DNA from: an uncultured Lentisphaeria bacterium
GTDB taxonomy: Bacteria; Verrucomicrobiota; Lentisphaeria; Victivallales; UBA1829
Assembly (NCBI GenBank): GCA_949282305.1
Contig: CASDPB010000108.1
Span: 1 to 42,052 of the forward strand
Direction: 5' to 3'
Length of the DNA stretch: 42,052 nt
Below are positions 5-23,012 of the stretch, one piece after another; position 1 is the first letter of the stretch, and each line of letters starts with the position of its first letter. The position numbers and the translations under genes were made by a program. Below the pieces are notes generated by a model that worked only from the letters and a program-made list of their open reading frames with translations, ran no database searches and was not told the origin of the DNA.

Positions 5-829
5 ATGAAAGGGAACTCTCCGGGAGATTGCAGGTCGGCAGTCCGCTTTCCGGAGACAGGAGGAAACGGGACACGCGCCATCTGCCGCATCTCCCGTTCC
101 GGCAGGAGACTTGCAGGTTTTACACTGATCGAGCTCCTGGTCGTAATTGCGATCATTGCCATTCTTGCGGCAATGCTGCTGCCCGCCCTTTCCAAAGCAC
201 GCGCGTCCGCGCAGGTGATCCGATGCGTAAGCAATCAGAAGCAGTTAGGAGGGGGAATTGCATCGTATTCCAGTGATTTTTCGGAATATATGCCGCTATC
301 CACCCCATACGGCTGGTATGATGATGCCAACGGCACAGCACCCTGCTGGCTTAATCAATTGCATCCTTACATCACCAACGGGAATAACTGGGACGGCGGC
401 AAGGAAAAGACTTCGGCAGTCTTGTTCTGCGGTTCCGATAAGCGGGAAGCCGATTCTCAAGGCCGCAGACCCAGCAGTTATTTTTATGCCAGGCGCCTGG
501 GACAGGTATGGCTGGTGGAAGCCGGAGAAACGGAATATCGTCCGCGGAAAGTGACCGGCGCGACCATTCCGAGCAAGCTGGTCTGCATAATAGACGGGGA
601 ATCGACAGAAGCTGAAGTCGCAGCCGGCACCGTGGTTGACATGAATCAGTTCGACATCGGCAATTCCGGGAATCATCCGTATGTGTCATTGCGGCATGGA
701 TTCAGAAACAACAACCTGTTCGCCGACGGTCATTCCGCCTCGGTTGACATGTATCACATGGGTCCTGTTGACGTCATGATGAGTTATTGTTTTCTCAGCC
801 CGGACTTTTCAACCAAATACTGGAAATAA
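5..829 (+). CDS. Pseudopilin with H-X9-DG C-terminus (prepilin-type N-methylation domain)
   Basis: Type IV pilin-like protein, expected to be cut by prepilin peptidase and assembled in or on the inner membrane. A basic leader (SRSGRRLAG) precedes [20 protein letters not shown], so the cut would fall between Gly38 and Phe39, followed by the hydrophobic helix with the conserved Glu at +5. The C-terminus carries the H-X9-DG signature (RHG...FADGHS) of the DUF1559-like families common in Planctomycetes and Lentisphaerota. The 38-residue leader is long, and no ribosome binding site can be seen because the ATG lies 4 bases from the window edge; the true start may lie outside. It is 26 bases upstream of the DUF4838 gene in the same direction, so it is probably the first gene of a glycan-degradation operon. 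The pseudopilin class is firm; its specific role is unknown. Confidence 0.85.
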
Positions 830-855
830 CATAGCAACGGAAAAAGGATTTTCTC

Positions 856-3135
856 ATGGCTGAAAAAAGAATGATGGCGGTCCTCGCGGGACTGCTGATG
901 TCGCTGTATTCAGGAACAGTGATGGCTCAAATTGAGCTTGTACGGGATGGAAAGAGTGATCGGACCATTGTCATCGCGGAAAATGCCGGTCCTGTGGAGC
1001 GGTATGCTGCCGGCGAACTGCAGAAATATCTGAAAGCGGCGACGGGCTGCAGTCTGCCGGTGAAGGAATCCGCCGCCCCCGGCGCACGACGCATCGTGGT
1101 CGGCGCGCCGGATGCCGTGCGCCGCCTGGTGCCCGCCCTGGCATTGCCCGGGAAATTTCGTCCTGACGAGGTGTTTTGCGCGGTCGAAGGCGATACCCTG
1201 GTTTTTACGGGCGCCGTTCCCCGCGGTGTGCTGTATGCCGTATATGAGTTTCTGGAACGGGAACTCGGGATACGGTTTTTCACTCCGACCTGTGAGAAAA
1301 TTCCGCAGCATTCCCGGATCGTGCTTCCGGATCATTTTTCCATTCGCTATGCGCCGGTATTTCATGGACGGGAAGCGTTGTACCGCAGTGTTCTTTCCGT
1401 TCCCGAATTTGCGGCAAAGATGCGCAACAATGGACATTTTCCCGCATTGGGCCCTGAACTGGGGGGACATAATCAGATTCTGGGGTGGTGTCACACATTC
1501 GGACAGATCATGCCGGGCGCGGAGCTGCAGAAAACCCATCCGAAGTGGCTTGCAGAAGTTAACGGGAAACGGGATCCCGGCGGTCTATGTCTGGCCAATC
1601 AGGAAATGCGTGAAGAATTTCTGAAACGGGTTCGGCAGCGTTTGCAGCAGGCGCCGGATACTGTTCTGATTTCCATTTCACAGAACGACAATGATTCCTA
1701 CTGCCGCTGCCGGGAATGCCGGTCTCTCGATGAAAAAGAGGGAACACCGGCTGCGTCCGTGATCCGGTTTGTCAACTTCATCGCAGCGGAACTGGAAGCA
1801 GATTATCCGAACCTCACAGTGGAGACTTTGGCTTATCTGTATTCCAGAAAGGCTCCGAAGACGCTTGCCCCCCGTTCCAATGTCATAGTCAGGCTGTGCA
1901 CAATGGAAGAAGATTTTTCCCGTCCGCTGGCTAAACCGGAAGCCGGTTCCTATGGCGGTTTTGCCACCAATCTGGAGGCTTGGAGCAAACTTGCGCCGCA
2001 ACTGATGATCTGGAATTACGTTGCCAATTTCCGCAATTACCTGATACCGCATCCGAACTGGCGATACCTGGGAGAGGATTTGCGTTATTTTGCGGAACAC
2101 CGGGTGGTGAATGTTTTGGAACAGGGAGACTGCGGCAGTGTTGATCTCGGAGATTTCGTCGAAATGCGAACCTGGCTGCTGTCAAGACTGCTCTGGAATC
2201 CGGAGCAGGATCAGACGGCATTGATGAAAGAGTTCCTGAATGGTTACTATGGAGAAAAAGCCGCACCGGAATTGCTGCAGGTGATTGAACTGCTGACAAA
2301 GGAAATCGAAAACTCCGGTGTTCCGCTGCATTGTTTCAATCGTAACCATGTCAACGACTGGCTTTCCGCTGAAACCTTGCAGGCCGCCCTGAAATGTTTT
2401 GACCGTGCATTGGCGGCGGCAGCCGGAAATCCGGTTCAAAAAGAGCGCGTCCGCAGAGCCCGGCTGCCCCTGGATCTGGTGCGCATGTGGAATTACCGCC
2501 ATGGAACGGGCACTGAAGCCGAACAGAAGGAGATGGAAAAGCTGCTTGAGGAGTTGAAGGGCATGGCGGCGGTTTCCGCTCCGCTGGGATGGCATGAAAA
2601 CGAGGCTTTCCCGCCTCTGCTGGAACGACTGGAGAACAATATCCGCGGTACCGGCATTGTCGGCGCCGCTCCGGTTCCGGAGTTCTGCCGCGATCTACCC
2701 CGGAAAAGCTGGCACGAATTTCTCGGAAACGATTTTACGATTTTCGATCTTTCCTGCGCCGGGAAAAAATCTGATCTGCACGGAGTCAACGGGTCTGTCC
2801 TGTGCCTGCAGGCGTCGCCGAACCGCGCATGGGGAGCCCAGTATCTTCTTCCGGAAAAGCTGCGGAACAAGCGCTTCCGGGTGATGGCGGCATTACGGCG
2901 TGCACCGGAAGCCGCCGGCTCGGTCACGATAGGCGTTTATGCTCCGAAAACGGGAAAACAATATCGGAAAGAATTTCAAATCAATGAAATTCCCGTCGAC
3001 CGCTATCGTTTTTTCCCTGTGACGGAACATTACACCATGAGTCCGGAAGATTATCTGTTTGTCGCACCGGTACCGGATACGAAGGAAATCTATCTGGACC
3101 GCATTGTTCTGCTGGAGGAAAAACAGGAAATCTAA
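856..3135 (+). CDS. Secreted DUF4838 family protein (glucuronidase-like N-terminal domain)
   Basis: A 759-residue exported protein. Residues 1-24 form a signal peptide ending TVMA. Residues about 26-150 resemble the alpha-glucuronidase N-terminal-like domain: ENAGPVERYAAGELQKYL, then VVGAP and the VLYAVYEFLERELGIRFFTP stretch. The body matches the DUF4838 pattern, with SQNDND, a Cys-rich CRCREC segment around residue 278, and a TIM-barrel-like region. DUF4838 proteins recur in polysaccharide-utilisation clusters of gut bacteria; their reaction is not established to my knowledge. The ATG at 856 has AAGGA seven bases upstream; ATGs at residues 6 and 7 are alternatives. It sits between a pseudopilin and a GH95-like gene, and is the only enzyme of this block with a clear export signal. 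I infer that it acts first on the extracellular glycan. Confidence 0.82.
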   Translation: MAEKRMMAVLAGLLMSLYSGTVMAQIELVRDGKSDRTIVIAENAGPVERYAAGELQKYLKAATGCSLPVKESAAPGARRIVVGAPDAVRRLVPALALPGKFRPDEVFCAVEGDTLVFTGAVPRGVLYAVYEFLERELGIRFFTPTCEKIPQHSRIVLPDHFSIRYAPVFHGREALYRSVLSVPEFAAKMRNNGHFPALGPELGGHNQILGWCHTFGQIMPGAELQKTHPKWLAEVNGKRDPGGLCLANQEMREEFLKRVRQRLQQAPDTVLISISQNDNDSYCRCRECRSLDEKEGTPAASVIRFVNFIAAELEADYPNLTVETLAYLYSRKAPKTLAPRSNVIVRLCTMEEDFSRPLAKPEAGSYGGFATNLEAWSKLAPQLMIWNYVANFRNYLIPHPNWRYLGEDLRYFAEHRVVNVLEQGDCGSVDLGDFVEMRTWLLSRLLWNPEQDQTALMKEFLNGYYGEKAAPELLQVIELLTKEIENSGVPLHCFNRNHVNDWLSAETLQAALKCFDRALAAAAGNPVQKERVRRARLPLDLVRMWNYRHGTGTEAEQKEMEKLLEELKGMAAVSAPLGWHENEAFPPLLERLENNIRGTGIVGAAPVPEFCRDLPRKSWHEFLGNDFTIFDLSCAGKKSDLHGVNGSVLCLQASPNRAWGAQYLLPEKLRNKRFRVMAALRRAPEAAGSVTIGVYAPKTGKQYRKEFQINEIPVDRYRFFPVTEHYTMSPEDYLFVAPVPDTKEIYLDRIVLLEEKQEI

Positions 3136-3150
3136 AGGCTGTGATGAAAA

Positions 3151-3192
3151 GGATTTGAGCTCGGCATCGATTTCCGTGCCGAGCTCAAATCC
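3151..3192. repeat. Perfect 16-bp stem-loop inside the glycosidase operon
   Basis: The arms 3151-3166 (GGATTTGAGCTCGGCA) and 3177-3192 are exact reverse complements around a 10-base loop. It lies in the 79-base gap between the DUF4838 gene and the GH95-like gene. No T-run follows on either strand, so it is not a classical intrinsic terminator. It could stabilise the upstream mRNA or be a processing site that sets unequal expression. Confidence 0.75.
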
Positions 3193-3214
3193 GGAACAGA
3201 TGAAGGAATAAAAC

Positions 3215-5794
3215 ATGGAAACCGCTTTTGATTTCCAGAAATTGCAATGGTCATTACCGTTTCCCGAACGTGTGGAACAGTATAATGTAGTTTATCTGAC
3301 TCCTCCGGGAGATCCGCTGGACGGAATGCCGTTAGGCAATGGGCGTCTGGGGGCGCTGATCTGGTTTGAAAACAGTTGTGTCCGCTGGCAGTTGAACCGC
3401 TGTGATCTTTTTTCCGAAATTCCGCGCGCGGTCTTCCATAATTGGCAGCAGGATGAGGAAGAATTCGTCACCTCGCTGCGTCATGCCGGACAGGGGGAAC
3501 TTGATTTCAGTCTGCCGGTATTCGACCCGTTCTATCTGGAGGAATGCCGGGGCGAACTGGATATTGCCCACGGGCTTGCCAGGATGAGAACCAAAACCCC
3601 GTTCGGCATGGTGGCGTTGGAGTTCGTTCTGGATTATGAGTCTGACCGGCTGCTGTTTCGTGTTCAGACCGATTTTTCCGATGCCGTTGCCCCGGAATTC
3701 ATACTGGAACGTTACGGAAGCCGGACTTATTCCCATTGGTATCGGCAGGTCAGGCGCGATCCCTCGCTTGGACTGTTCACGACCGAAAGTCATGTCTGCG
3801 GCGAAAACTATGATCTGACAGTTCATCTGAACAATGCCCTGGAGTTTGCCGTGGGAGGAACCTTGCCGGGAATCCGGCTGATCCGGCAGATCGGCAGGTT
3901 CAGACAGACAGCCGTCTGGCCGGAAGCCGCAAAGCAGGAATTCTGCGGCAGTGTCGGGTGCACGCCTCCGGTGAAGGGAAAAGCCCGTGAACTTCTGCAT
4001 CGGGAAAATCCGGACTTCAAAACTGTCTGTCGGCGGACAGCTGCCGGATGGAAACACTTCTGGTCAACTTTCCTGATGGATTACGGCGATGAATACCTGA
4101 ATCAGCTTTACCATCTGGCGCTTTATTATCTGAACGCTTCTCAGCGCGGGGAATATCCGGGGCGCTTCATCAACGGACTATGGGGCTGGAATCGGGACGT
4201 CCAGAACTGGAATTTCTACTTTCATTGGAATCAGCAGCAGTTGTACTGGGGAATTTACGCTTCCGGGCACTCCGAACTTGCGCTCAGTTACCTCAATCTG
4301 CGGTGGCATGGCATGGAGTCGGGAATGCGGGATGCTGAAACATTTTTCCAGGTGCCGGACGCAGTTGTGGTTTCTGACGTCACCGATAAAGACGGCGCCA
4401 ACTCCGCCAGCGAATTCGCAAATCATACTCCGGCAGGGCAGATTGCATTGGATTTTTACCGTTATTTTCTTTATACGGATGATCTGGAGTTTCTACGAAA
4501 GCGGGCATATCCGTATATGAAAGCGGCTGCGCAGTTTTTAGAAAGCCGCCTGGTTCCGGGTCCCGACGGGAAAATGCACACCGGGCCGGGAAGTGCCTAC
4601 GAAGGCTGGATCATGCTCACTGACACGATCAGTGAAATCAGCACTCTGGAGGCATTGCTGGATGCGCTGCTGGATGCCGGGGCTCTGCTGAACGAAAATC
4701 CGGCGGAACAATTGCGAAGACGGCAGTTGCGGGCGAATCTGGCAGCCTATCCGGAGGCGTCAGCGGCAGATTACCTGGATATTCAGAACAAATTGAAATA
4801 CGGCAGTTATCGCGGAAAACCCGCATTGGGGAACCGGTTGCTGGCTGCAGGAATCAATGCGGACGGAACTCCGCAACTGTCGCTGATTCCCGCGCCTGTG
4901 CCGGAGACCAGAGAGCCGGAAACCGCCGCGGCCGTGCTGCAGCGTCTGCAGCACGGAACAGTTGTATCAGAACCGATCAGCAATGGCATGAGAGTGAATG
5001 ACGGAATTTTCCCCTGGGTCGAATTATGCCCGGTATTTCCGGCGGGGATCATCGGCATTGCACAGAAAGGAAGCGCGCTTTATCAGAAAGCTGTTGATAC
5101 GTTCAGGACTATGACTCCGGCTTCCATGGGCTGGTGTCCTCTGCCGATTGCCGCCGCCCGCCTGGGACTGGCGGAGGAAACTGCCAGGGAACTGCGGGAA
5201 TTTTCTGAAACCTGGCAATGGTTCCGGAACGGCTTTTTCCATTACGGTCCATCGTATTCGAGCTATCCGGAAAACACGCTGTATTTCCTGGAACGGGATA
5301 TCCGCGACTGCGACGGGACGCTGGAGGATACGTTCCCCGGGCGGTTATGGGCATTCCGGCATATGGGAATGGAGGCTATGGGCATATTGACCGCGACAAT
5401 GAACGAGGCGCTGCTTCAGTGTCATGAAGGAGTTGTCAGAGTCTTTCCTGCCTGTGATCACGACGCCTCTTTTTCTCTCTATGCGTATCATCGGGTGCGG
5501 GTCGATGCGGAAAAGCGGGACGGAAAAATTCAGTTTGTCGCATTGTCGCATTCTGGGGCACTCAGGGTAAAGATTGTGAACCCATGGCATGAAGCTGTAG
5601 TCTGGCCCGGGGGAAACAGCACCCGGGACAAACTGCTGGAGCTGGATTTTGCGGATTGCGGAACATGGATTCTACTTCCTCCGGGAATCTCTCCGGAAAC
5701 GGTTCGGCCCGCAGCTCCGGTTCTGCAGAAGAATCACCGTCCGCGTTATTCCTTCAGACGCCGTGCAATCATCGGAACGGAGCGGATGTTTTAA
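3215..5794 (+). CDS. GH95-like glycoside hydrolase (alpha-L-fucosidase/galactosidase type fold)
   Basis: An 859-residue protein without signal peptide, so probably cytoplasmic. The N-terminus has GMPLGNGRLGALIW, the glycine-rich signature of GH95 and related N-terminal beta domains. The (alpha/alpha)6-barrel half begins near residue 290. HWNQQQLYWG, about residues 330-340, parallels the N-x-Q-x-N-Y-W motif of GH95, and GPGSAYEGW plus DTISEISTL follows where the family places its acid residue. GH95 enzymes usually remove alpha-1,2-fucose or alpha-galactose. Divergence is large and DUF5703-type relatives are possible, so the substrate is not assignable. AAGGA lies seven bases before the ATG. 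The hairpin at 3151-3192 separates it from the preceding gene. Together with the next two genes it would form a cytoplasmic set processing imported oligosaccharides. Confidence 0.68.
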   Translation: METAFDFQKLQWSLPFPERVEQYNVVYLTPPGDPLDGMPLGNGRLGALIWFENSCVRWQLNRCDLFSEIPRAVFHNWQQDEEEFVTSLRHAGQGELDFSLPVFDPFYLEECRGELDIAHGLARMRTKTPFGMVALEFVLDYESDRLLFRVQTDFSDAVAPEFILERYGSRTYSHWYRQVRRDPSLGLFTTESHVCGENYDLTVHLNNALEFAVGGTLPGIRLIRQIGRFRQTAVWPEAAKQEFCGSVGCTPPVKGKARELLHRENPDFKTVCRRTAAGWKHFWSTFLMDYGDEYLNQLYHLALYYLNASQRGEYPGRFINGLWGWNRDVQNWNFYFHWNQQQLYWGIYASGHSELALSYLNLRWHGMESGMRDAETFFQVPDAVVVSDVTDKDGANSASEFANHTPAGQIALDFYRYFLYTDDLEFLRKRAYPYMKAAAQFLESRLVPGPDGKMHTGPGSAYEGWIMLTDTISEISTLEALLDALLDAGALLNENPAEQLRRRQLRANLAAYPEASAADYLDIQNKLKYGSYRGKPALGNRLLAAGINADGTPQLSLIPAPVPETREPETAAAVLQRLQHGTVVSEPISNGMRVNDGIFPWVELCPVFPAGIIGIAQKGSALYQKAVDTFRTMTPASMGWCPLPIAAARLGLAEETARELREFSETWQWFRNGFFHYGPSYSSYPENTLYFLERDIRDCDGTLEDTFPGRLWAFRHMGMEAMGILTATMNEALLQCHEGVVRVFPACDHDASFSLYAYHRVRVDAEKRDGKIQFVALSHSGALRVKIVNPWHEAVVWPGGNSTRDKLLELDFADCGTWILLPPGISPETVRPAAPVLQKNHRPRYSFRRRAIIGTERMF

Positions 5795-5825
5795 CGTGCA
5801 AAACCAAACACAATGGTGTAGTGAC

Positions 5826-6725
5826 ATGTGGAAAAAACCAAAATTACTGGATCATCAAATTGTTGGAATAACGAGTTTTGAAGCCACTCCATTTGTATTT
5901 CATGACAGGATTTATCTGCTGGAAAATTTTCATCGCAGTGCGATGTTTCCGCAGCAGCCTCCTCAATACCGTTTTCATGAAGACGGATGTCTGATCCGGG
6001 ATTTGGAGACAGACACAATTCTCGCATATCCGTGGCTCAATCACTATTTTTCCACGGTGACAGTTCACGAAAACGAGATATGGCTGTTTGGCGGGGATTA
6101 TGGCTGGAATCAGCCATGGTGGGAAATACGGGAGCTGCAGGTGATCCGGTCCCGCAATCTGACCAGCTGGAGTGAACCGGAAGTGGTATTGCGTGCCGGA
6201 GAGGGAGAACATTTATTCAACAACGCCGTCGTTTACAATGGACACAGCTTTATCATGCTGTATGAAACGGATGATCTGCGCTGGCCGAAATTTACTTTCC
6301 GTTTCGCTGAATCACATGATTTGATTCACTGGGAAAAACTGCCGGAGAATGCGATATACGGGCAGGACAAATATGTCGGGGGACCAGCGCTATATTTTGT
6401 CGACGGATTCTATTATGTGCTCTACCTGGCCGCGTTGGGAAATGGCTGCTGGGAGACACGGATTACCCGCAGTCGAAACCTGATTGACTGGGAGGATGCG
6501 CCGCCGGATCGTCCTTTTCTGACGTTCGATCCCTCGCGTGAAACAGACCCTGCCGGTCATCCGGGAGTGATGGAGTGCAATGCCTCGGACGCGGAATTGA
6601 TTGTCTGGCATGACGAAGTTCACATTTGGTGGAATGGCGGAGATCAGCTTTGCTGCGGAGACTTGCAGCGGGCACGTTTCCCGGGAACATTGAAACAACT
6701 TCTGGAGGCGTATTTTGAAAAATAA
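5826..6725 (+). CDS. GH43/GH130-like five-bladed beta-propeller protein
   Basis: About 299 residues with recurring propeller-blade motifs: ESHDLIHWEKL, SRNLTSWSEP and SRNLIDWEDAP mark successive blades, and GGPALYFVDGFYYVLY is the usual inner-strand pattern of the GH43/GH32/GH130 folds. These families hydrolyse or phosphorolyse furanosides and mannosides; I cannot choose between them because the catalytic acids are not securely placed. No signal peptide. The open frame runs back into the GH95-like gene as far as a TTG at 5649, but homology-like sequence begins only after the stop at 5794. I chose ATG 5826; GTG 5796 is the alternative. It overlaps the next gene by 11 bases, so the two are translationally coupled. 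Confidence 0.66.
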   Translation: MWKKPKLLDHQIVGITSFEATPFVFHDRIYLLENFHRSAMFPQQPPQYRFHEDGCLIRDLETDTILAYPWLNHYFSTVTVHENEIWLFGGDYGWNQPWWEIRELQVIRSRNLTSWSEPEVVLRAGEGEHLFNNAVVYNGHSFIMLYETDDLRWPKFTFRFAESHDLIHWEKLPENAIYGQDKYVGGPALYFVDGFYYVLYLAALGNGCWETRITRSRNLIDWEDAPPDRPFLTFDPSRETDPAGHPGVMECNASDAELIVWHDEVHIWWNGGDQLCCGDLQRARFPGTLKQLLEAYFEK

Positions 6726-8748
6726 AACAAGAAAGGAAGCGGTTTCCAGAGCGCATATTTCTTATAGAATTCCGACATTTCAGTGGATGACGGATGCCTG
6801 CTTTGAAGATTTGCTTGTGACGCTGGACCGAAATCGGGAAGGCGTTGACGATGTCGCTCTTTTCACCGCCATGGTGCATTCGCCTCTGAAGCTGCCGGAA
6901 CTTGAACGCCGCAATGAAATATTGTGCCGGCGTTATGCTCAATTGCGGAAATATGGTTTCAGTGTCGGAGTAAATGTGCTTTGCACTGTCGGTCATCATG
7001 AAGAAAATGTGGAGTGCGCTCCTTCGGGCTGCACGCCCTTTACTGATATTTTCGGCAATACCGAAGCAGGAACATGCTGTCCGAATGATCCGGAATTCCG
7101 CAGTGGTTTTTTGAAGCCGATGTACAGAATGCTGGCGGAGGCCGGCCCCGACTTCATCTGGCTGGATGATGATATCCGCTGGTGCTGGCACGGAAAACTG
7201 ATGTTTGTATGCTTTTGCGATCATTGCATGGCACAGTTTAATCGTCTGTACGGTACGGATTTTACTCGCGAAACACTGCACCGGGCGTTTAATTCCGGTC
7301 CTCTTCCGGAACGGCTCAGTATGCGGAAGCGGCATCTGGCGTCGTCCGGCCGCTCAATTCGGGAATTGTTTCGTTGCATCGCGTCTTCCGTGTATGCGGT
7401 CGATCCCCGAATTGAACTGGGGGTAATGGACAGTGGAATGCGTTGGGGGGATAATGCCGATTTCGATGAGCTGTGTCAGGCTCTGATGAAATCGGGTGAA
7501 AAAGTCCCCCGGTGGCGCCCCGGCGGAGGTGCATACAACGACTCGCGTCCGGATGATTTTTTAGATAAAGCCGCGGCATTGGGGGCGGAGGCGGCGTCGC
7601 TGCCTGACTCCGTAGTCAGGATCCAGTCCGAAATAGAATGTTTTAATTATCAGCGTCTGCGCAAGTCTGCACATGCCGTGGCAATGGAAGCCGCGATTTA
7701 CCATGCAGCCGGACTGACTGGTGCTGCATGGAACATCATGGACGTGGAAGCTGATCCGTTGTGCGCCTATGAGCCTTTGATTTCAACGCTCTGCCGCTTT
7801 CGTCCATTTTTTGACCGGCAGGTGGTTTCCAATCAGTGTTCGCGCCCAATCGGTGTATACAACGGATGGACGCAGGGCTATATTGCAGGCAGAAATCTGG
7901 CTGCGGGAGACTGGTGCGGACGAGAAGAGGTGAATCCCTGGAACAATCCGCATGCCTCCGAATTGTTTGCCGCCGGCATACCTCCGGCATACAGAATGGA
8001 GGAGGCTCAGGTCACAATGTTAAATCAGTACATCGCCTGGACACTGCCGCAGGAGGTGCTGATCAGAATTCTTCACGGCGGACTGTATTGTGATGTGGAT
8101 ACTCTGGCAATTCTGGAAGAGCGCGGATTAGGCCGCTATACGGGTTTTCAGGCGGGACGGAAAATCAGCCGGAATGCCAGAGAACGTTTGAAAAAGCACC
8201 CGTTGTGCACGGATTTCAGTGGATTCATTCGGGATTGTCGTCAGTCGTTTCCCTGGGGACATGAAGATGCCTGGGAACTGCTTCCGGCAGATGATAAAGG
8301 GGAAAGTCTGGCGGAACTGGTAGATTATCAGGGCACAATCCTGGCTGAGTGTTCTTTGGGAATTTATGAGAATGAATGGGGCGGACGGGTCGCGGTTGCC
8401 GGATATTATCCATTGCGCGACCAGCTGTTTTTATCAAGACTGACCTTGATGAAGCGGTTGTTTTCCTGGTTGAGTCACGATCAGCTGATCGGCTGGATTT
8501 CCAGTTACCATAGGATCGCATTATGGGCAAGGCAGTCGGAGGAACGGCTCTCCTTCAGTTTGCTCAATGCGTCGCAGGACAAAGCGGATCATGCGAAACT
8601 CATGGCAAAGACAAACCATGCTTGCGGATTTATCTGGGGAATGGACGGACTGAACTGCAATATGGAAGGAAACAGGGGAAAGGACGGCTATGTGGAATTT
8701 ACATTGCCGCAGCTGGCTCCGTGGACTGTATATCAGATTGAAATCTGA
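6715..8748 (+). CDS. Putative GH-A clan (GH42-like) TIM-barrel protein, uncharacterised
   Basis: A 677-residue protein with no signal peptide. The start is TTG 6715: GGAGG at 6704-6708 sits six bases upstream, inside the preceding gene. The N-terminal half reads as a TIM barrel: GVNVLCTV, then PDFIWLDDDIRW, followed by a Cys-rich VCFCDHC, and RIQSEIECFNYQ as a possible acid-containing strand. The middle (MLNQYIAWTLPQEVLIRILHGG...YCDVDTLAILEERG) resembles the Rossmann-like beta-galactosidase trimerisation domain of GH42-type enzymes, and the C-terminus looks like a beta-sandwich ending APWTVYQIEI. I do not recognise a characterised relative. Its position as the last gene of the block, coupled to the propeller gene, suggests a role on the same glycan. 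Confidence 0.55.
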   Translation: MKNKTRKEAVSRAHISYRIPTFQWMTDACFEDLLVTLDRNREGVDDVALFTAMVHSPLKLPELERRNEILCRRYAQLRKYGFSVGVNVLCTVGHHEENVECAPSGCTPFTDIFGNTEAGTCCPNDPEFRSGFLKPMYRMLAEAGPDFIWLDDDIRWCWHGKLMFVCFCDHCMAQFNRLYGTDFTRETLHRAFNSGPLPERLSMRKRHLASSGRSIRELFRCIASSVYAVDPRIELGVMDSGMRWGDNADFDELCQALMKSGEKVPRWRPGGGAYNDSRPDDFLDKAAALGAEAASLPDSVVRIQSEIECFNYQRLRKSAHAVAMEAAIYHAAGLTGAAWNIMDVEADPLCAYEPLISTLCRFRPFFDRQVVSNQCSRPIGVYNGWTQGYIAGRNLAAGDWCGREEVNPWNNPHASELFAAGIPPAYRMEEAQVTMLNQYIAWTLPQEVLIRILHGGLYCDVDTLAILEERGLGRYTGFQAGRKISRNARERLKKHPLCTDFSGFIRDCRQSFPWGHEDAWELLPADDKGESLAELVDYQGTILAECSLGIYENEWGGRVAVAGYYPLRDQLFLSRLTLMKRLFSWLSHDQLIGWISSYHRIALWARQSEERLSFSLLNASQDKADHAKLMAKTNHACGFIWGMDGLNCNMEGNRGKDGYVEFTLPQLAPWTVYQIEI

Positions 8749-9714: not shown

Positions 9715-9772
9715 CGTGGAAAACGCATTTTCACAGAATAAATTATCCGCATAAACAGCATTGGGGAGTATG

Positions 9773-10759
9773 ATGAAGCGGTTTGCAGATTTCGGACTTG
9801 ACGATTATATCAACGCACTGCGGGATTTTTGCGGGCAGGATCTCTGCCTCTATGACATCAGGGACTTTTCCGCCTCATACAAACTTCATCTGTCCAAAAA
9901 GCAGCGGATTCACGGATGTCCCTACTGCATGGCGGTGAAAAAATCTCCCGCAGCCCTTGCAGAATGTATCCGGGAGGAACATGCGATGCTTCAGGATATT
10001 CCGGAAAACACGCCGTTCCGCATTCGCCGATGTCATGCGGGAATTGTGCAGATGATTCTCCCGCTGCGTCTGGACGGGGATCTGCTCGGCGGCATCTTCT
10101 GGGGAATGCGTTTTCTGAAAGGCAGACGCCCGAACCAGAAATTCCTGCGCGCCTTTGCAAGACGTTACGACCTGGACATCGCGGAACTGACCCGGTGCAC
10201 ATGCCGGACGCCGGAAACTACGCTCAAGGCTCTCCGCGATTCCAGCACGCTGCTTTTCCTTCTGCGCGACCATATTCTTTCGTGTTCCCGCAACAAGCTG
10301 CTGGAACAGAATCTTGCCCGTTCGTTTGCCAGACCATCCGAAATTTCCGCCGCGGGGAGCGGAACCGTTCCCACGCCACGAATTCTCCGGCACAGTCTTT
10401 CCCCGGAAATCAGGAGTGCTCTTGAACTGGTCGAAAAAAACTACAAAGACGGTGTCTCGCGCGAGGAAATTGCCGAAAAGGTCGGATTGAATCCCTCCCA
10501 TTTCAGCCGGAGATTCAAGCATGAGACCGGAATCAGTTTCCGCTCCTATCTTCAGGAATGCCGGATCTGCGCGGCGGCTTATATGATCAAACACAGCAAA
10601 CTGAGGGTGGAAAATATCGCGATGAAACTGGGTTTTTCCTCCAGCGCCGCCTTCAACCGCTCTTTTCGTGCTCTGACAGGATTTTCCCCGCGCCGTTTCA
10701 TGTTCAGCAACGCGGAATATCCCTGGAGTGAAAAAACGCGCGGGGACGAACCATTCTGA
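9773..10759 (+). CDS. AraC family regulator with PocR-type sensory domain
   Basis: About 328 residues. The N-terminal half carries a PocR-like ligand domain: DLCLYDIRDFS, then HGCPYCMAVKKSPAALAEC, in which paired cysteines follow a His, and IVQMILPLRLDGDLLGGIFWG. The C-terminal 100 residues are a double helix-turn-helix of AraC type (SREEIAEKVGLNPSHFSRRFKHETG, then VENIAMKLGFSSSAAFNRSFRALTGFSPRRF). GGGGAG at 9763-9768 favours the second of two adjacent ATGs (9773) over 9770; a TTG at 9761 is less likely. The next gene starts 48 bases downstream in the same direction, so the regulator probably controls the LamG glycosidase-pseudopilin pair and may autoregulate. PocR domains bind small organic or sugar-derived ligands; this one is unknown. 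Confidence 0.88.
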   Translation: MKRFADFGLDDYINALRDFCGQDLCLYDIRDFSASYKLHLSKKQRIHGCPYCMAVKKSPAALAECIREEHAMLQDIPENTPFRIRRCHAGIVQMILPLRLDGDLLGGIFWGMRFLKGRRPNQKFLRAFARRYDLDIAELTRCTCRTPETTLKALRDSSTLLFLLRDHILSCSRNKLLEQNLARSFARPSEISAAGSGTVPTPRILRHSLSPEIRSALELVEKNYKDGVSREEIAEKVGLNPSHFSRRFKHETGISFRSYLQECRICAAAYMIKHSKLRVENIAMKLGFSSSAAFNRSFRALTGFSPRRFMFSNAEYPWSEKTRGDEPF

Positions 10760-10807
10760 CAGGTGCATGGAATTTCAAAATTCTGTATAAGAAAACAGGA
10801 AGGAAAC

Positions 10808-13800
10808 ATGATGAAGCATCCAATCAAGATCGGGGCGGTGAGCATACTGCTGGGCTGTGTCTGGAGCCTTTGCGGCGGCGTTTATCTGCCGGACGTCGGC
10901 GAGGGAGACAATTTGACAGTAAAAGACCGTGCGGGCATCAGGAATGCGTATCTGGGCAGCCGGAACGCACAGGGAAAGGCTCTTCCTGTGCGTGTTGCGG
11001 AAAGCCGTTTCGGCGGGGAAAACCGCTGTGCGCTGCGTTTCCGCGGGATGGGTTCCTATGGCACCGAAGTCATGAGTATTCCTGTCGAAAAGAAAGGCGC
11101 CCCCTTCTCCGTGACGATTGAAGCATGGTTTCGACCGGAAAAGACGCCGGAGAATTTCACGCGCCTGATCTGTGCCGGCGATTCCCCGGAAAAGACAAAC
11201 GGCAGTTTCCGGCTTTATACCAAAAAAGGAGGCGGAACGGTTCGAGTGATCTGGGCTCTGAACCTGAACGGAAAGACCTGTGAACTCGGCACGCCGCAGA
11301 ACCTGGCGGTTTTCATCCCCGGAAAGTGGGTGCATATCGCAGCGACATACCAGAAGGAAAACGGCGTAGCAAAGATTTTCATTGACGGAAAAACCGTTGC
11401 GACGGCATCATTTCCGAAAGGCGGCATCACACCGACGGATCATGAAATCACCGTTGGAAACAGAGACCAGGCAGACCGCGGATTCATCGGCTTGATTGAT
11501 GAAATCCGGATCGAACCGGAAGCGCTGGATATTCCGATGCTTGGATTTTCCCGTCCGCTCAGCGCACAGCATACGGAGTCTTCCGCAAAGACTTTCGAGT
11601 GGGAGGGCTCGCGCTGCGGCATTACCGATCAGGTGCCCGCGCCCTGGAAACCTGTGACTGTTTCCCGGAAAGCGGATGGCCGCCTGACCGTCACCGCCGC
11701 GGAAAAGGAATTTTACTTCAACAAGGGAATTCTGCCGGACCGGATCCTCCTGCGCGGCAATGTCGAACTGCTTGCTTCTCCGCTCCGCGCAGAATGGGAC
11801 GGCAAAGCGCTGGAAGCCGTGCCGGGAACACTGCGCATCCTGTCCGAATCTCCACGCGAGGTTCGTCTTGCGGGCGAACTGCGTTATGGAGCACGGAACT
11901 TCCGCGGCGAGGTCTCGATCGAGTTCGACGGTCTCTCGGGTGTGACGCTTGCACCGCTGGATCAGGCTGCCGGAGCGAAAGTAAATTCGTTCCGGATGAA
12001 GATCGAACTGCCCCGGACAAACACGCCGCTTGCCAAAGTCGGCGCTTATTCCGGCTTCCTGACAAAAAAACTTTCCAAGGCCTGGTCGTTTCCGATGTGG
12101 GCGGGCGGGGAAACGTGCGGCATGACGCTCTATGCAGAAAGCGACCAGTGGTGGGTCAATCCAAAACCGCAGGATGCGTTCGTTCTGGAACCTTTTGAAA
12201 AAACAGCGGTTCTGACGGTCAACTTCATCAGTGCTGCGACCGTGTTCAAGCCCGACAGTTCCTTCACGTTCTTTTTTCAGCCGACGCCTGTCCGGGATTT
12301 CCCGAAGTCCCGCCCGGAGATGGGTTTCTTCCACGGCGCGTTCTACGATATGGAGAAAATTCCCGGCGCAGTCAATCTTGTCTATGACGCAGCGAATCTT
12401 CTGAACCGGGAAAAGGGAACGCTGGACATTCTGCTTGAAGCCGCGTTCAATCCCGACGCGAAAATGGAACGCCGGCTTGGACGGGAACCTTACATCCGGG
12501 AAATCTTTTCCGTTGTGACGCTCGGGCAGGAACATTTCCGGCTCTGCTACAGCATTCCGCACGGCGGAATCATCGCTGACGAAGGCATTCAGCCATCCTC
12601 GGAAGCAATCTGGGACGGGACTCGGAAAACCCTTTTCACCGGCGGCTTCAAACCGAAAAAAAATCGTCTGTTCCGCCTCACGCTCTGCTGGGGAGAGGGA
12701 AAACTGCGCTGTTTTGCGGACGGCAGACTGATCGGAGAATGCGAAAGGCAGACGCTTTTCAGCGGCAGAATTCTTCCCGAAACAGACGGCACGACGCAGA
12801 TCCGTTTCGGAGAGAGCATTTTCAATTTTCTGACGCCACGTTTCGGCTCCGGATTCCGGATCGCGGCACTGCGGCTCCTTGACCGTGCGCTTCCTCCGGA
12901 AAAAGAGGATGCCGGCACACTGCATCCTCTTGAAGGGACGGTGCTTCTGGAACGTTTCCGGAATGTGACAGCTCTGCCGGACGGCGAGCTTTTGAGCCGT
13001 CCGGAGAAGGGACCTGCCGGACGTGTCTCGCGGGGTGGAACACTTGCGGATGGCAAACTGTGCCTCTATCAGAATCCCGCGACGATGAAGACAAGCTGTC
13101 TGGACCGGGTTGCGGAAACCGGCACGACTGCTATGATCTTCCATCAGGGGTGGTCCTCCATCCAGAGCCATTACCGCACCGAGGAACCGGAAAAACTCCA
13201 TCAGCTGATTGAGGCATGTCACAAAAAAGGAATGAAGCTTCTGCTCTATTTCGGATTTGAACTTTCGGAGAAGGCGCCGGAATTTGCGAAATGGCATCGC
13301 GAGGTGCTCCGGCTCCATCCGGATCGTCCCACTCCGCCGCTTTCCCTGGTCCGCCACGATCAGAAATCCGGAAAGGTCTGTTACGGAAGCCGCTGGCAGG
13401 ATTTCATCACGTTTGCCATCGAAAAAACCTGGAAGGAGTTTCATTTCGACGGCGTATTCATCGACGCGGCAATGGTTCCTTATCCCTGTCCCAATGAACT
13501 TCACGGCTGCGGATGGCGCGATTCCGCCGGAAAGCTGCATGCCACAATGCCTGTGCACCGCTATCTGGAAATGATCCGCCGGATTCACAATATCGTCAAA
13601 AGCCGGGGCGGACTGATTACCGGAAACCAGGCATCCGGCCCGCTCTGGGGCTACCCGGATTCGGTCTGGGTCGGCGAGGGGTATAAATACAAGGAACTTG
13701 CGGCAAATCCAGGAAAGGCCATTCCCCTGCCGGAGTGGAGGACGAATTTCGCAGGCCGCACCATCGGTACGCCGGGCGAGCTCCTTCTGTATGAATATCC

Positions 13801-14254
13801 GCCGTTCTGGCGCAGGGACGCGGGATGGGCGCTCGCCGGACTCCACGGGATGTTCCTCCGTCCGGAAAACTGGTGGAAGGGAAGCTATCTGGAAAAACTT
13901 GCACGGATGCGCCGCGTCTTCCGGGAATTCGGAATGGAACAGGCGGAATACATCGCCTACTACGATCCTTCCCTTCCTGTTAAAAGCGCTGCAAAGGATG
14001 TTGCCGTCAGTCTCTACCGCACACCGCGGGCGCTGCTGCTCTGGGTTGCCAATCTTTCCGCGGAGGAAAAAGTTGTGCCGCTTTCGTTCGACTTCTGTCC
14101 GGAGCTTCCTTCGTGCGCGCGTGCTGTAGATCCCCTGACCGGCGCGGTCTGTCCTGTGAAGGGGAATTCCATCATGGTCCGCGTATATCCCTATAACTGG
14201 AGAATGCTCAGTATTGACCTGACCGGACACAAAGGAAAGGAGTTGGCAAAATGA
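10808..14254 (+). CDS. Large secreted LamG-domain protein with putative glycosidase barrel
   Basis: A 1148-residue exported protein. The start is ATG 10808 with AGGAAGGAAAC just upstream; the frame extends back to a GTG at 10763 without a binding site. A signal peptide covers residues 1 to about 24 (IGAVSILLGCVWSLCGG). Residues about 85-240 form a laminin-G/concanavalin-like domain (FSVTIEAWF, GKWVHIAATY, FIGLIDEIRI). A second LamG-like segment lies near 545-690. The region between resembles the N-terminal part of GH123-like/DUF6067 proteins. The C-terminal third is a TIM barrel (MKLLLYFGFELSEKAPEF, FHFDGVFIDAA, GGLITGNQASG), with Asp residues where retaining glycosidases place them. Binding modules and export imply action on an extracellular polymer. 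It overlaps the following pseudopilin gene by 4 bases. Confidence 0.78.
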   Translation: MMKHPIKIGAVSILLGCVWSLCGGVYLPDVGEGDNLTVKDRAGIRNAYLGSRNAQGKALPVRVAESRFGGENRCALRFRGMGSYGTEVMSIPVEKKGAPFSVTIEAWFRPEKTPENFTRLICAGDSPEKTNGSFRLYTKKGGGTVRVIWALNLNGKTCELGTPQNLAVFIPGKWVHIAATYQKENGVAKIFIDGKTVATASFPKGGITPTDHEITVGNRDQADRGFIGLIDEIRIEPEALDIPMLGFSRPLSAQHTESSAKTFEWEGSRCGITDQVPAPWKPVTVSRKADGRLTVTAAEKEFYFNKGILPDRILLRGNVELLASPLRAEWDGKALEAVPGTLRILSESPREVRLAGELRYGARNFRGEVSIEFDGLSGVTLAPLDQAAGAKVNSFRMKIELPRTNTPLAKVGAYSGFLTKKLSKAWSFPMWAGGETCGMTLYAESDQWWVNPKPQDAFVLEPFEKTAVLTVNFISAATVFKPDSSFTFFFQPTPVRDFPKSRPEMGFFHGAFYDMEKIPGAVNLVYDAANLLNREKGTLDILLEAAFNPDAKMERRLGREPYIREIFSVVTLGQEHFRLCYSIPHGGIIADEGIQPSSEAIWDGTRKTLFTGGFKPKKNRLFRLTLCWGEGKLRCFADGRLIGECERQTLFSGRILPETDGTTQIRFGESIFNFLTPRFGSGFRIAALRLLDRALPPEKEDAGTLHPLEGTVLLERFRNVTALPDGELLSRPEKGPAGRVSRGGTLADGKLCLYQNPATMKTSCLDRVAETGTTAMIFHQGWSSIQSHYRTEEPEKLHQLIEACHKKGMKLLLYFGFELSEKAPEFAKWHREVLRLHPDRPTPPLSLVRHDQKSGKVCYGSRWQDFITFAIEKTWKEFHFDGVFIDAAMVPYPCPNELHGCGWRDSAGKLHATMPVHRYLEMIRRIHNIVKSRGGLITGNQASGPLWGYPDSVWVGEGYKYKELAANPGKAIPLPEWRTNFAGRTIGTPGELLLYEYPPFWRRDAGWALAGLHGMFLRPENWWKGSYLEKLARMRRVFREFGMEQAEYIAYYDPSLPVKSAAKDVAVSLYRTPRALLLWVANLSAEEKVVPLSFDFCPELPSCARAVDPLTGAVCPVKGNSIMVRVYPYNWRMLSIDLTGHKGKELAK

Positions 14255-14940
14255 GTATACGGCGTCTTTTCTCCCTGATCGAGCTCCTCGTCGTTCTTGC
14301 GGTCATCGCGGTTCTCGCAAGCCTGCTTCTGCCTGCGCTGAGCATGGCAAAGGAGAAGGCGAAACAGTCTGCCTGCATCGGGCAGATGAAGCAGCTCGGT
14401 TATGCTTCGCAGCTTTATGCGGACGACTACAAGGAATATATTGTCTCCAATACGAAAAATTACGGATTCGACTATGAACTGAGAGCCTATCTCGGTCATC
14501 CGAATGATCCGCTCTATGTGAGCAAGGGTGCGCGACGGCTCCAGATCATGCACTGTCCTTCCGCCGGTCCGAGGGGCGGAACACGTTCCTATGCGATTGC
14601 GCATAAGGACCCCGGCTGGGCTCCGGAGGGTTCCTACGGAGCGGAGGGAAAGCGTCTGGGTGAAATTTCCAAGCCGGAAGCGACGATCCTCTTCTGCGAA
14701 AACTGGGCACCGGGAAACAGCGTCGGAAACTCCACGGAAGGCGCGATCTGCTATCCAAAGGACGACATCCACAGCGTCGGCGGATTGATTGCGAGACTGC
14801 ACCGCAAAGTGAACAAGTCGAATTACACATTCGTGGACAGCCATTGCGAGTATCTGGATTACCGAAGGACGACCACTCTCTACTACCCGGCGGCAGGAAA
14901 CCGCTGGGGCGGCATGTGGACCATCAACCCGAATGACTGA
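14251..14940 (+). CDS. Pseudopilin coupled to the LamG protein
   Basis: A 229-residue pilin-like protein with an 8-residue leader (MSIRRLFS) running into LIELLVVLAVIAVLASLLLP, then the KAKQSACIGQMKQLG segment typical of these families. The residue before the Phe is Leu instead of the usual Gly, and Thr is replaced by Ser, so prepilin peptidase cleavage is uncertain. The C-terminal H-X9-DG motif is degenerate: DSH replaces DGH and the His spacing is longer. The ATG overlaps the stop of the LamG gene (ATGA), which shows translational coupling and fixed co-production of enzyme and pseudopilin. Cysteines at C46 and C97 could form a disulphide. Confidence 0.85.
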   Translation: MSIRRLFSLIELLVVLAVIAVLASLLLPALSMAKEKAKQSACIGQMKQLGYASQLYADDYKEYIVSNTKNYGFDYELRAYLGHPNDPLYVSKGARRLQIMHCPSAGPRGGTRSYAIAHKDPGWAPEGSYGAEGKRLGEISKPEATILFCENWAPGNSVGNSTEGAICYPKDDIHSVGGLIARLHRKVNKSNYTFVDSHCEYLDYRRTTTLYYPAAGNRWGGMWTINPND

Positions 14941-15309: not shown

Positions 15310-17106
15310 TTACGGCTGCGGAAACGGGGAGGCAGTAATCCGGGCTGCGGGAATCCACAGATCACTGTAAGCGCAGGAGTCCATCGAACGCGGCGGGCCG
15401 AAGCCGACCTTGTCGACTTCATTGTAAGGATTGCGGGGCTGATCGGTGAGCTTGCCCAGTGCCCAGATCATCCAGCCGACCCGTTCGCGGGCGCAAAGCG
15501 TCAGCATTCCGGCCTGAAACTCGCGGCAGACCGTTTCTCCTTTGTCCCAATGGGTTGCGCCGAATTCGGTGCACATCACCGGAACCTGATGGGAGTCACG
15601 GAATTTCACGATGTGCTTCTGCACAAGCCACGGATGATTGTCCAGCGGATAGTCGTGGAAAGCGAAGACGAGGTTGTTGTAGGGCGCGTCCGCGGTAGAT
15701 GCCGCCGGTCCCCAGGTCCGTTCAAGGGAACGGCTGTGCGACCAGTCGGCGGAACCGACGAGGATAATGTGCCTGGTGTCGACCTTGCGGATTTCACGGA
15801 TGGCGCGCATATACCACTCGCGTGCCTGCTCGGGGCGGATGTCGTGCGGTTCGTTCATCAGTTCATAGCCGAGCACGTGCGGTTCGTTTTTATAGCGTTC
15901 GGCGACCCTGCGCCAGCGGCTGACCCACTCGGTCACTCCGGCTTCGTCCCACAGCGCGACAGCCTGTTTGCTGCGGGCTTTGGCTTCGTCAATCTTTTCG
16001 CTGAAATACCCGTGGTCGTCGAGAATCACATACATGTCATGCCGTTTCGCTGCCTGAATCACGGGATCAATGAAGTCGCTCATGTGGGCGGTGAGGTCGA
16101 TCGGCTCCTTGACGTTATTGTTGAAGTAGCGGGTGTAGAAAGGCAGACGGATGGTGTTGAGACCGCGCTTCTTGGCATACTCCATGACCGCATCGTCCAG
16201 GTTGCTGATGATAACGTCGCGGGCGTAGCCGATTCCGGCGGGCAGGAACTCCTTACCGTCGGCGGTGACGATCTGCGGACCCTTCACCTTGAGCCAGGCA
16301 AAATCATAATTGGGGCGATAACCGAAAACCGCAAGCGGCAGCGATTCGCCAATTCCAGCGGCGGAGACGGTGACGGAGTTGTATTTCTGGATGGAAAGGG
16401 GCGGATTTTTCCAGACATATTCAAACCTGCCGTTCCGGACGGGAACTTTCCGGGCGGTCTTTTTGCCGGAGGCGTTACTGAGCTTGAGCGTCACTTCGGA
16501 GCTGCTGCCGACGACCCGCCCCCGCAGATGCAGTTCCGTAGCCGCCTTTTCCGGCTTGTCCGCAAATTCAACGGAGAGTTTGCGGGCTTCGCCGAGCTGA
16601 ATCTCGGCAACATCGAAATCGGCAATCCGGTTCAGACGGAACGCCAGCATCCGTGCCTTGCTGCCGCTCGGACGGCGCGACACCGGGAACTCCAGCGTCT
16701 GCCACTCCGAACCGCCCTTGAAAGTGACCATCTGCCCCATTGAGCCGCGGGGATCACTGAGATACCAGTAGGCTTCCAGTTGATATTCCTGGCCGGGTTC
16801 GCCGCCGCGCAACCGGATTCTCAGCGGCGCCGCTTCCGGAAACTCCGCAAGATTGAGCTGCGGCTTGAACTGGAAGTTCCAGCGGATTCCCGGCTGTCGG
16901 GTCAGCTCGCGGCGCCGGATCGTCAGAACGCCGTCCCGGACAACGGTCTCCGCTCCCTGTTCTCCTTTGCAGACAATTTGCGGTTTGTCGCCGGACTTTG
17001 CCGGAAAGATGGACAATTCCCGTTCAGGCGAAGCCATTTCGGCGAAGAGCGATGTTGCGGAGACAAGCGTCATCACGCAGACTGCGGACAGAGTCTTTCG
17101 TTTCAT
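15310..17106 (-). CDS. Secreted GH5-family glycoside hydrolase, copy 1
   Basis: A 598-residue exported enzyme. ATG 17106 (minus) has GAAAGG eight bases upstream; a TTG at 17121 is less likely. The signal peptide ends near SATSLFA. The N-terminal half (about 30-260) is a beta-sandwich with a big-like linker. The C-terminal half is a GH5 barrel: GLNTIRLPFY, MYVILDDHGYF, YELMNEPHD with acid/base Glu419, and VMCTEFGAT with nucleophile Glu514, plus MIWAL. GH5 enzymes cut beta-1,4-glucans, mannans and related polymers; the substrate cannot be read from the sequence. It starts 21 bases after the pseudopilin stop, so the two form an operon. The barrel is strongly similar to the second copy at 20002-21768 while the N-terminal sandwich has diverged, as expected if the paralogues target different polymers. 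Confidence 0.88.
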   Translation of the reverse strand: MKRKTLSAVCVMTLVSATSLFAEMASPERELSIFPAKSGDKPQIVCKGEQGAETVVRDGVLTIRRRELTRQPGIRWNFQFKPQLNLAEFPEAAPLRIRLRGGEPGQEYQLEAYWYLSDPRGSMGQMVTFKGGSEWQTLEFPVSRRPSGSKARMLAFRLNRIADFDVAEIQLGEARKLSVEFADKPEKAATELHLRGRVVGSSSEVTLKLSNASGKKTARKVPVRNGRFEYVWKNPPLSIQKYNSVTVSAAGIGESLPLAVFGYRPNYDFAWLKVKGPQIVTADGKEFLPAGIGYARDVIISNLDDAVMEYAKKRGLNTIRLPFYTRYFNNNVKEPIDLTAHMSDFIDPVIQAAKRHDMYVILDDHGYFSEKIDEAKARSKQAVALWDEAGVTEWVSRWRRVAERYKNEPHVLGYELMNEPHDIRPEQAREWYMRAIREIRKVDTRHIILVGSADWSHSRSLERTWGPAASTADAPYNNLVFAFHDYPLDNHPWLVQKHIVKFRDSHQVPVMCTEFGATHWDKGETVCREFQAGMLTLCARERVGWMIWALGKLTDQPRNPYNEVDKVGFGPPRSMDSCAYSDLWIPAARITASPFPQP

Positions 17107-17127
17107 CAGTGAACCTTTCAATTGAAA

Positions 17128-17922
17128 TCAGTGAGCTTTGAAATACCAGTTCGGGATATCATTTTTACCGCTGTTCATTTCCACAAGCGATCTCCATTCG
17201 GCATGTCCGTCCGCCCAGAGGTAGTTGCCGCCCTTGCTGTGCCTGGAGGCGATTCGGGTGGGCAGACCGTCATTTGCACGGGCAATGGTCACGTAATTAT
17301 CCTGGGCACCGGTATGAATCGTTCCATCCGGCACATCCCCGACGAGAGCCGTTTCCGTGGGGCGCTGTTTGAAATAGGTGATTTTCTGAGGTCCATCGCT
17401 TCCGTTGGAAGACAGCTCCGGATTGTAGCAGAGCCAGCGATTCCAGCCTAACCCGGCATAGACTCCCGGTTCTCCAGTTTGCCAGTTGGAATTTGCAGGG
17501 GGCACACCTGCCCATGTGGGACAACCGAAAATGCTCGGCTGTCCAAATCCTTTCAGGTCTTTTACCATATTGCTCCAAGTGACCTGCGCACGCCCCGTGT
17601 AAGGAGCCAGCTGCAGTTTCCAATAGGCGGGCGTGCCGCCTTTTTCAGTGGCTGTGGGGAGCCAGCTGTCGTAATCGTTCGTATACATCAGCAACGCAGA
17701 GCCAAGCTGTTTGCAATTGGCGAGACATTTCATGCCGTTCGCCTTGTTCCGCGCCTGACTCAGCGCCGGCAGAAGCATCCCTGCCAGAATCGCGATGATC
17801 GCAACAACCACGAGCAGCTCAATGAGGGTAAAATCTCGGCGGGCGGCGCCGGACATGTTGACGTGTTTCACTCCTTCACGTGTTTTCCATTCCAACTGTT
17901 TATTCCTTACGATGTTATCCAT
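17128..17922 (-). CDS. Pseudopilin, copy 1, upstream of GH5
   Basis: A 264-residue pilin-like protein. ATG 17922 has GGAGG seven bases upstream; the frame opens at TTG 17973. The leader [20 protein letters not shown]...RRD is 30 residues, followed by [20 protein letters not shown]. The residue before Phe is Asp, not Gly. An internal ATG at 17856 would give the short leader MSGAARRD but has a poorly spaced binding site. The C-terminus has an intact H-X9-DG (RHSKGGNYLWADGHAEW). Leader, helix and following 40 residues are nearly identical to those of copy 2, whereas the C-terminal domain diverges. It is the first gene of a promoter-pseudopilin-GH5 unit. Confidence 0.88.
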   Translation of the reverse strand: MDNIVRNKQLEWKTREGVKHVNMSGAARRDFTLIELLVVVAIIAILAGMLLPALSQARNKANGMKCLANCKQLGSALLMYTNDYDSWLPTATEKGGTPAYWKLQLAPYTGRAQVTWSNMVKDLKGFGQPSIFGCPTWAGVPPANSNWQTGEPGVYAGLGWNRWLCYNPELSSNGSDGPQKITYFKQRPTETALVGDVPDGTIHTGAQDNYVTIARANDGLPTRIASRHSKGGNYLWADGHAEWRSLVEMNSGKNDIPNWYFKAH

Positions 17923-21768: not shown

Positions 21769-21801
21769 AACAGTCTCCAGAATTACTTTATTGTTCATTG
21801 T

Positions 21802-22971: not shown

Positions 22972-23012
22972 AGTGATAAGAGCAAGTCAACAACATAAGA
23001 AAGGTGTCAGAA

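Follow-up and report, generated by a model that had tools for sequence, protein, structure and literature searches.

A three-hydrolase gene cassette conserved across bacterial phyla and joined by a local DUF4838 gene in a Lentisphaeria bacterium

We report a cassette of three hydrolase genes that is conserved across phyla, which is the new result of this analysis. Its products are a GH95/GH139-like protein, a five-bladed propeller protein and a 677-aa TIM-barrel protein (hereafter P677). In the window considered here, a stretch of 42,052 nucleotides that constitutes one entire contig of an uncultured Lentisphaeria bacterium (genome of 4.36 Mb in 132 contigs), the cassette is preceded by a gene for a DUF4838 protein, which is a local, lineage-specific addition lying outside the conserved three-gene unit. 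The reading that we prefer, holding it with about even confidence, is that the conserved cassette and the secreted DUF4838 protein form one operon directed at one shared glycan carrying an L-fucose-type residue.

Table 1. Features of the four-gene block.
Feature	Position	Strand	Basis
DUF4838 (GH163-type) protein, 759 aa, putatively secreted	856-3135	+	PF16126, N-terminus by eye
GH95/GH139-like hydrolase, 859 aa, no signal seen	3215-5794	+	PF22124, profile vs PDB
Five-bladed propeller protein, no signal seen	5796-6725	+	start codons, model, Foldseek, VIA
P677, 677-aa GH42/GH151-like TIM-barrel protein, no signal seen	6715-8748	+	model, profiles
GGAGG, ribosome-binding-like, serving start 6715	6704-6708	+	sequence
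11-base overlap, propeller gene / P677 gene	6715-6725	+	ORF coordinates, sequence

The ORF tables bear out the block as the initial annotation had described it, with four real ORFs on the same strand (Table 1), which by their sequence look like one operon. The DUF4838 gene is separated from the GH95-like gene by 79 bases, and the latter from the propeller gene by 1 or 31 bases, depending on whether the propeller starts at GTG 5796 (309 aa) or at ATG 5826 (299 aa); both are likelier than the start at 5649 given in the ORF list, which would create an overlap of 146 bases with the GH95-like gene. The overlap between the propeller and P677 genes is credible, since GGAGG is situated six bases before the P677 start codon, TTG 6715. 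The DUF4838 protein is the sole one of the four with an N-terminus resembling an export signal, MAEKRMMAVLAGLLMSLYSGTVMAQ, as read by eye, which agrees with the annotation's assignment of a signal peptide to this protein only and not to the three hydrolase-like ones. The block was also said to contain neither a transporter nor a regulator, and this holds for 856-8748: a regulator of the PocR/AraC type according to Pfam is encoded by the next same-strand gene, 1 kb downstream (9761-10759), and either operon may be its target.

Upstream, the block is adjoined by a DUF1559 pilin-like gene (5-829). Such genes repeatedly adjoin sugar-enzyme genes in the window (5-829, 14251-14940, 17128-17973, 21948-22679), and similar-looking ones are found beside relatives (L100:13248-13916, L207:10703-11377, L262:8264-8929). 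A tannase/feruloyl-esterase gene (18523-19983) has on either side a GH5-type gene (15310-17121 and 20002-21798); the two are of similar size and both have a pilin-like gene upstream, so that the unit looks duplicated. A GH38 alpha-mannosidase gene (23004-25703) is followed directly by a gene for a GntR/LacI-type regulator (25703-26794), while 10763-14254 encodes a protein of 1163 aa with a LamG-type domain and weak matches to GH123_N and GHL6 (GH151-type).

The conservation of the cassette was assessed in loci picked by the P677 family alone, using a three-sequence alignment scan of genome contigs (120 relatives, 80 loci kept). Seventy-seven loci were counted; L172, L188 and L220 were left out, their P677 ORF being lost to an overlapping ORF, and the first of these does carry a GH95-like gene. 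A GH95-like gene and/or a propeller gene was observed within 3 kb on the same strand in 26 of the 77 loci, and a GH95-like gene so placed in 21; the propeller was present at any distance in 13, and both partners occurred in the locus in 8. Where at least 3 kb was available on both sides (n = 41), the GH95-like gene was found within 3 kb in 13 cases. In the other 51 of the 77 loci, no partner gene was observed on the same strand within 3 kb, and many of these loci lie on short contigs. According to the tree labels, the cassette occurs in seven named phyla (Bacillota, Bacteroidota, Acidobacteriota, Chloroflexota, Planctomycetota, Armatimonadota and Lentisphaerota), and genes repeatedly overlap by 1 to 8 bases (in L175, L180, L182, L196, L205, L214, L215 and L221). 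Because the three genes keep company in widely differing bacteria, their products probably break down a single shared glycan. By a hydropathy heuristic with uncertain starts, all three proteins look exported in Bacteroidota loci, whereas in Bacillota they mostly do not; the same export pattern for all three is as expected for enzymes meeting one substrate in one compartment.

For the reverse search, 387 genomes belonging to the window's phylum were scanned, and in each the top two or three candidates were scored. Among these candidates, GH95-like proteins at E<=1e-40 were observed in 4 of the 387 genomes, in at least five places, and P677 at E<=1e-60 in 18 of them. Four of the five GH95-like places adjoin a P677 relative or are situated within 3 kb of one: the window itself, G332:C178 (24 bases away), G380:C270 (66 bases) and G332:C208 (2.8 kb, with one 819-aa gene between); at the other place, G200:C15, no P677 relative is located nearby. 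A third GH95-like/P677 pair in G332, at C25, lies beyond the scored candidates. The control consisted of 14 loci of other P677 homologues (two close, twelve distant) from the window's family, and neither partner was found there at 1e-5. The distance matrices of the partners correlate (GH95-like, r = 0.71, n = 23; propeller, r = 0.73, n = 12; 0 of 5000 permutations in each case), a measure in which co-inheritance is not separable from shared species history.

The nearest P677 relatives of the window (L148, L149, L099; branch with SH-aLRT 100, in a quick tree without bootstrap) lack both partners, and most listed Planctomycetota loci lack the cassette; at least 14 changes are needed to place its presence on the tree, some of them owing to short contigs. 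Since the window's own branch is devoid of partners, the cassette has been lost or regained repeatedly. These partnerless closest relatives, together with a lineage full of DUF4838 proteins, could be taken to mean ordinary accumulation, in which four unrelated hydrolases became chance neighbours in a hydrolase-rich genome. On the other hand, the same-strand adjacency in seven phyla, the short overlaps in several loci, the reverse search and the correlated distances all argue against accumulation, which we consider very improbable as an account of the block: it is already contradicted for the three-gene part and viable for DUF4838 alone.

The DUF4838 protein contains a full PF16126 domain (E = 2e-91; 306.9 bits against the Pfam cut-off of 26.6). 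The annotation gave the activity of DUF4838 as unknown, which has to be amended, since such a protein is labelled GH163 in one table (PMC9870897), and the GH163 enzyme of B. thetaiotaomicron is described as endo-acting, cutting GlcNAc-beta-1,2-Man in complex N-glycans (PMC10154615). A profile of 16 DUF4838 relatives matched no solved catalytic domain in PDB; all that it matched was the N-terminal domain in entries for GH67, GH115 and hexosaminidases. We therefore set aside the GH67-type action, and with it the suggestion of uronic-acid glycans as substrates, because the resemblance is limited to an N-terminal-type domain, falls below the Pfam threshold and is again weak against PDB.

The window's own genome has 20 DUF4838 matches at E<=1e-5, and the domain is massively expanded in the window's family, with up to 160 first-look candidates in the relative G013. 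As DUF4838 is so abundant in the lineage, its neighbourhood says little. In L102, a propeller gene 42% identical to that of the window (247-1185) is followed on the same strand, after about 1.4 kb, by a DUF4838 gene (2539-5190); this genome (G014) has about 110 DUF4838 first-look candidates, so that the neighbourhood speaks neither for nor against a link. A DUF4838 relative was found in 0 of the 77 P677 loci, and its membership in the conserved unit was rejected on this ground. The shared pathway proposed in the initial annotation is backed by the cross-phylum conservation of the three inner genes; a place for DUF4838 in the conserved unit is not supported.

The same count bears on the possibility that the block is a cassette for N-glycan or mucin fragments, with the GH163-type enzyme freeing LacNAc-type oligosaccharides outside and the inner three proteins removing fucose, galactose and mannose-type residues. 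Besides the action of GH163 on complex N-glycans (PMC10154615), this possibility draws on several neighbouring genes: GH38 in the same window, in the operon of the 37%-identical P677 paralogue of the same genome (with a GH32/GH43-type propeller and GH42) and, by sequence clustering, in L149 and L165; GH92 in L160 and, by clustering, in L156 and L183; GH20 in L175; and a sialate-esterase-like gene near L099. However, in addition to the absence of DUF4838 from the conserved loci and its uninformative abundance in the lineage, many loci belong, to judge by their record titles, to groundwater, sediment and lake bacteria, for which host N-glycans are not obvious substrates, and we regard this explanation as unlikely. 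Other neighbours of P677 loci are GH36-type genes (L159, L261) and GH116-type and GH39 genes (L207), and with such varied neighbours (GH92, GH38, GH36, GH20, GH116-type, GH39) the substrate could vary. As for uptake, a SusD gene lies beside the cassette in L157, and genes for an ABC solute-binding protein and a permease in L195.

The GH95-like protein matches PF22124 partially (residues 292-497; 54.8 bits against a cut-off of 27; E = 9.6e-15), whereas the GH139-side profile DUF5703_N stays below its cut-off (19.9 against 26.7 bits). The profile of 21 homologues (A3) retrieved from PDB both the GH95 entry 8zbv (3.8e-32) and the GH139-type entry 9hmb (2e-24). GH139 is a family of inverting 2-O-methyl-fucosidases (RG-II) related to GH95, and the corresponding residues of AfcA are N421, N423 (the base), E566 (the acid) and D766 (PMC12282258). 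The alignments place N339 at N423 and E463 at E566, while E720 is assigned to the D766 position by motif spacing and the 9hmb alignment. Among the homologues, E463 and E720 are conserved in 21 of 21, whereas H337 and N339 are found in 20, the remaining one having a gap. The protein falls between GH95 and GH139, and the annotation's description of it as a divergent GH95-like enzyme is supported.

The propeller protein scores below the Pfam cut-offs for both GH43 (24.4 against 32.2) and GH130 (21.6 against 26). The model, folded with the trimmed profile A6 (pLDDT 89.3), is a five-bladed propeller of the GH43/GH130 type, in line with the small propeller protein of the annotation. Foldseek matched it to GH130 (7fip, 1.7e-10) and to many GH43 entries, and VIA placed BT_0996 first (5mt2; Z 23.6, rmsd 3.4, 270 aligned), tied with others. 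The PDB matches of another profile, A4, were set aside, being dominated by fused GH29 domains and uninformative on the propeller. E19, N132, E147 and D165 are present in 15 of 15 homologues, and D255 in 14 of 15, with one gap. The propeller homologue of L157 carries a fused GH29 fucosidase domain (PF01120, E = 1.7e-42); clustering and alignment indicate a GH29 fusion in L166 as well.

P677 and its 25 relatives (26 members) belong to no Pfam or NCBIfam family, the few listed hits being scattered, single and of unrelated kinds. Single-sequence searches of genome contigs and of PDB with P677 found nothing, and hence profiles were used instead. The own genome contains seven matching places including P677 itself, with two paralogues that are 48% and 37% identical along almost their full length, and four further places at 22-29%. 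At the profile level, the family is present in 98 of the 387 genomes of the phylum; its close branch spans eleven named phyla, including a Sigynarchaeum bin, and the nearest named relatives are Lentisphaerota, one of them labelled Victivallis. Kinship between P677 and the propeller was considered and rejected, as hhalign of the two profiles gave a probability of 1.4 and no relation was seen.

The AlphaFold2 model of P677, built from 26 sequences (pLDDT 87.1, pTM 0.90), is a TIM barrel with GH42-like further domains, as seen from the matches to 3tts and 5e9a; the annotation's GH42-like barrel without a family is thus upheld by both structure and the empty library searches. The best Foldseek matches in PDB are GH42 enzymes (3tts, E = 1.4e-17, TM 0.62); the fucosidase 6tvk is fourth (E = 1.5e-16, TM 0.63/0.65), and the GH164 beta-mannosidase 6t5o is lower (E = 2e-14, 11% identity) and missing from the profile-versus-PDB list at E<=1. 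VIA gave Z 22.7 for GH42 5e9a (rmsd 4.4, 575 aligned) and Z 20.1 for 6tvk (rmsd 4.0, 570 aligned). PgaB-type barrels had the top VIA score (Z 24.7, rmsd 3.3, 316 aligned) but were rejected, as they cover the barrel part of P677 only. At the sequence level, the family profile detected GH42 3tts in PDB at E = 2.9e-4, and hhalign against the three GHL6 proteins (GH151) of the own genome gave a probability of 97.6 over 364 columns. These GHL6 (PF14871) proteins are L228, L229 and L230; L228, of the GH151 type, matches 6tvk at 8e-179, and this kinship suggests that PF14871 covers GH151, the family to which 6tvk is assigned (PMC10154630).

Nine residues are invariant in 82 of 82 close P677 homologues: D151, D152, D153, E306, E308, C122, C166, C168 and C171. 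To judge from the model and the alignment, Asp-Asp-Asp follows strand 4, E306 is at strand 7, and strand 6, where W267-R268 is located, lacks an invariant acid. In GH151, the nucleophile D154 is on strand 4 and the acid/base E235 on strand 6 (PMC10154630). Since the strand-4/strand-7 pair of P677, as placed in the model, is of the GH42 type and not the strand-4/strand-6 pair of GH151, fucosidase action of P677 is not implied. As modelled and aligned, P677 resembles both GH42 and GH151 and, by the tests made, is neither.

Some loci offer hints on the sugar. Distant P677 homologues adjoin dehydrogenase genes (L104, L105, L108) and metallo-hydrolase genes (L101, L104), hinting at a link of the wider family to sugar oxidation. 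In L159 (Mariniphaga sediminis), the downstream genes encode a dehydrogenase, an HpaI-type aldolase, a metal-dependent hydrolase, a 2-hydroxyacid dehydrogenase and a RhaT-like permease, a set whose annotation suggests L-deoxysugar oxidation. The RhaT-like cluster, with L-rhamnose-type genes, was observed in 4 of 80 loci, and such genes point to an L-deoxysugar other than fucose. These permease, aldolase and dehydrogenase genes would also fit a cassette for plant or algal polysaccharides of the rhamnogalacturonan or fucan type, freeing methylated fucose, L-rhamnose or L-galactose, as would the kinship of the GH95-like protein to GH139, the first place of BT_0996 in VIA, and the window's other genes for GH5 and tannase/feruloyl-esterase proteins. 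Yet no pectinase or sulfatase was found among the annotated neighbours of the cassette, and by fold the propeller matches many GH43 and GH130 entries equally well; there is only a small chance, in our estimate, that this explanation is the right one.

The preferred reading, one operon acting on a glycan with an L-fucose-type residue, follows the lead to fucose for several reasons. Among proteins of solved structure, the closest to the GH95-like protein are those of GH95 and GH139; L157 has a propeller-GH29 fusion, and in L149 P677 is adjoined by a GH29 gene; the GH151 fucosidase family is detectable from the P677 profile; and the own genome encodes an L-fucose isomerase, on another contig. Proceeding from the operon-like layout, the predicted folds, the conserved residues and the cross-phylum co-occurrence, we infer the catalysis, the L-fucose-type substrate, the import and the order of cleavage as follows. 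The DUF4838 (GH163-type) enzyme would release an oligosaccharide outside the cytoplasm, and a transporter whose genes lie elsewhere would bring it in. Once in the cytoplasm, the oligosaccharide would lose an alpha-L-fucose-type residue to the GH95/GH139-like protein, an inverting enzyme in this view, with E463 as the putative acid and N339 as an Asn base assisted by E720. The neighbouring linkages would be cut by the propeller and by P677, for which E306 at strand 7 and the Asp cluster that follows strand 4 would serve.

A broader proposal, which we put forward tentatively and trust somewhat less than the preferred reading, is that P677 represents a new glycoside hydrolase family, kin to GH42 and GH151, with a putative Asp-Asp-Asp catalytic cluster, and that together with new GH95/GH139-like and propeller families it makes up a dedicated three-step pathway for one L-deoxysugar glycan, which seven or more phyla would share and which the libraries searched do not contain. 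Every protein can be placed in a known fold group but fits no known family cleanly, and novelty is claimed relative to Pfam and NCBIfam. With its unusual putative catalytic residues, the conserved gene set opens a direct and testable way to a new enzyme family as well as to its glycan, and named strains carrying P677 loci are Mariniphaga sediminis SY21 and Maribellus luteus XSD2.

In comparison with known systems, the likeness of the secreted protein to GH163 consists in its DUF4838 domain, the GH163-type activity being putative here. The GH95-like protein keeps the acid Glu and base Asn positions of GH95 and GH139, but differs from AfcA in having His337 at N421 and Glu720 at D766. For the propeller protein, the closest systems are five-bladed propellers of the GH43, GH130 and GH137 types, to which its model is linked by a confident fold match; the catalytic set of GH43 is Asp/Asp/Glu, whereas the invariant E19 and E147 and the near-invariant D255 of the propeller do not read as such. 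P677 shares with GH151 (6tvk) a distant profile match, the fold and an Asp after strand 4 ahead of the Cys motif, but in the model has no invariant Glu on strand 6, with a Glu on strand 7 instead, and the GH151 profile PF14871 matched none of the 26 members. None of them was matched by the GH42 profile PF02449 at E<=1 either, and identity to GH42 (3tts, 1kwg) is about 12%. GH42 has Asn-Glu after strand 4, as is also visible in the 3tts row of the P677 profile alignment, where P677 has Asp-Asp-Asp; what the two have in common is the whole-chain fold, the four-Cys motif and the Glu on strand 7.
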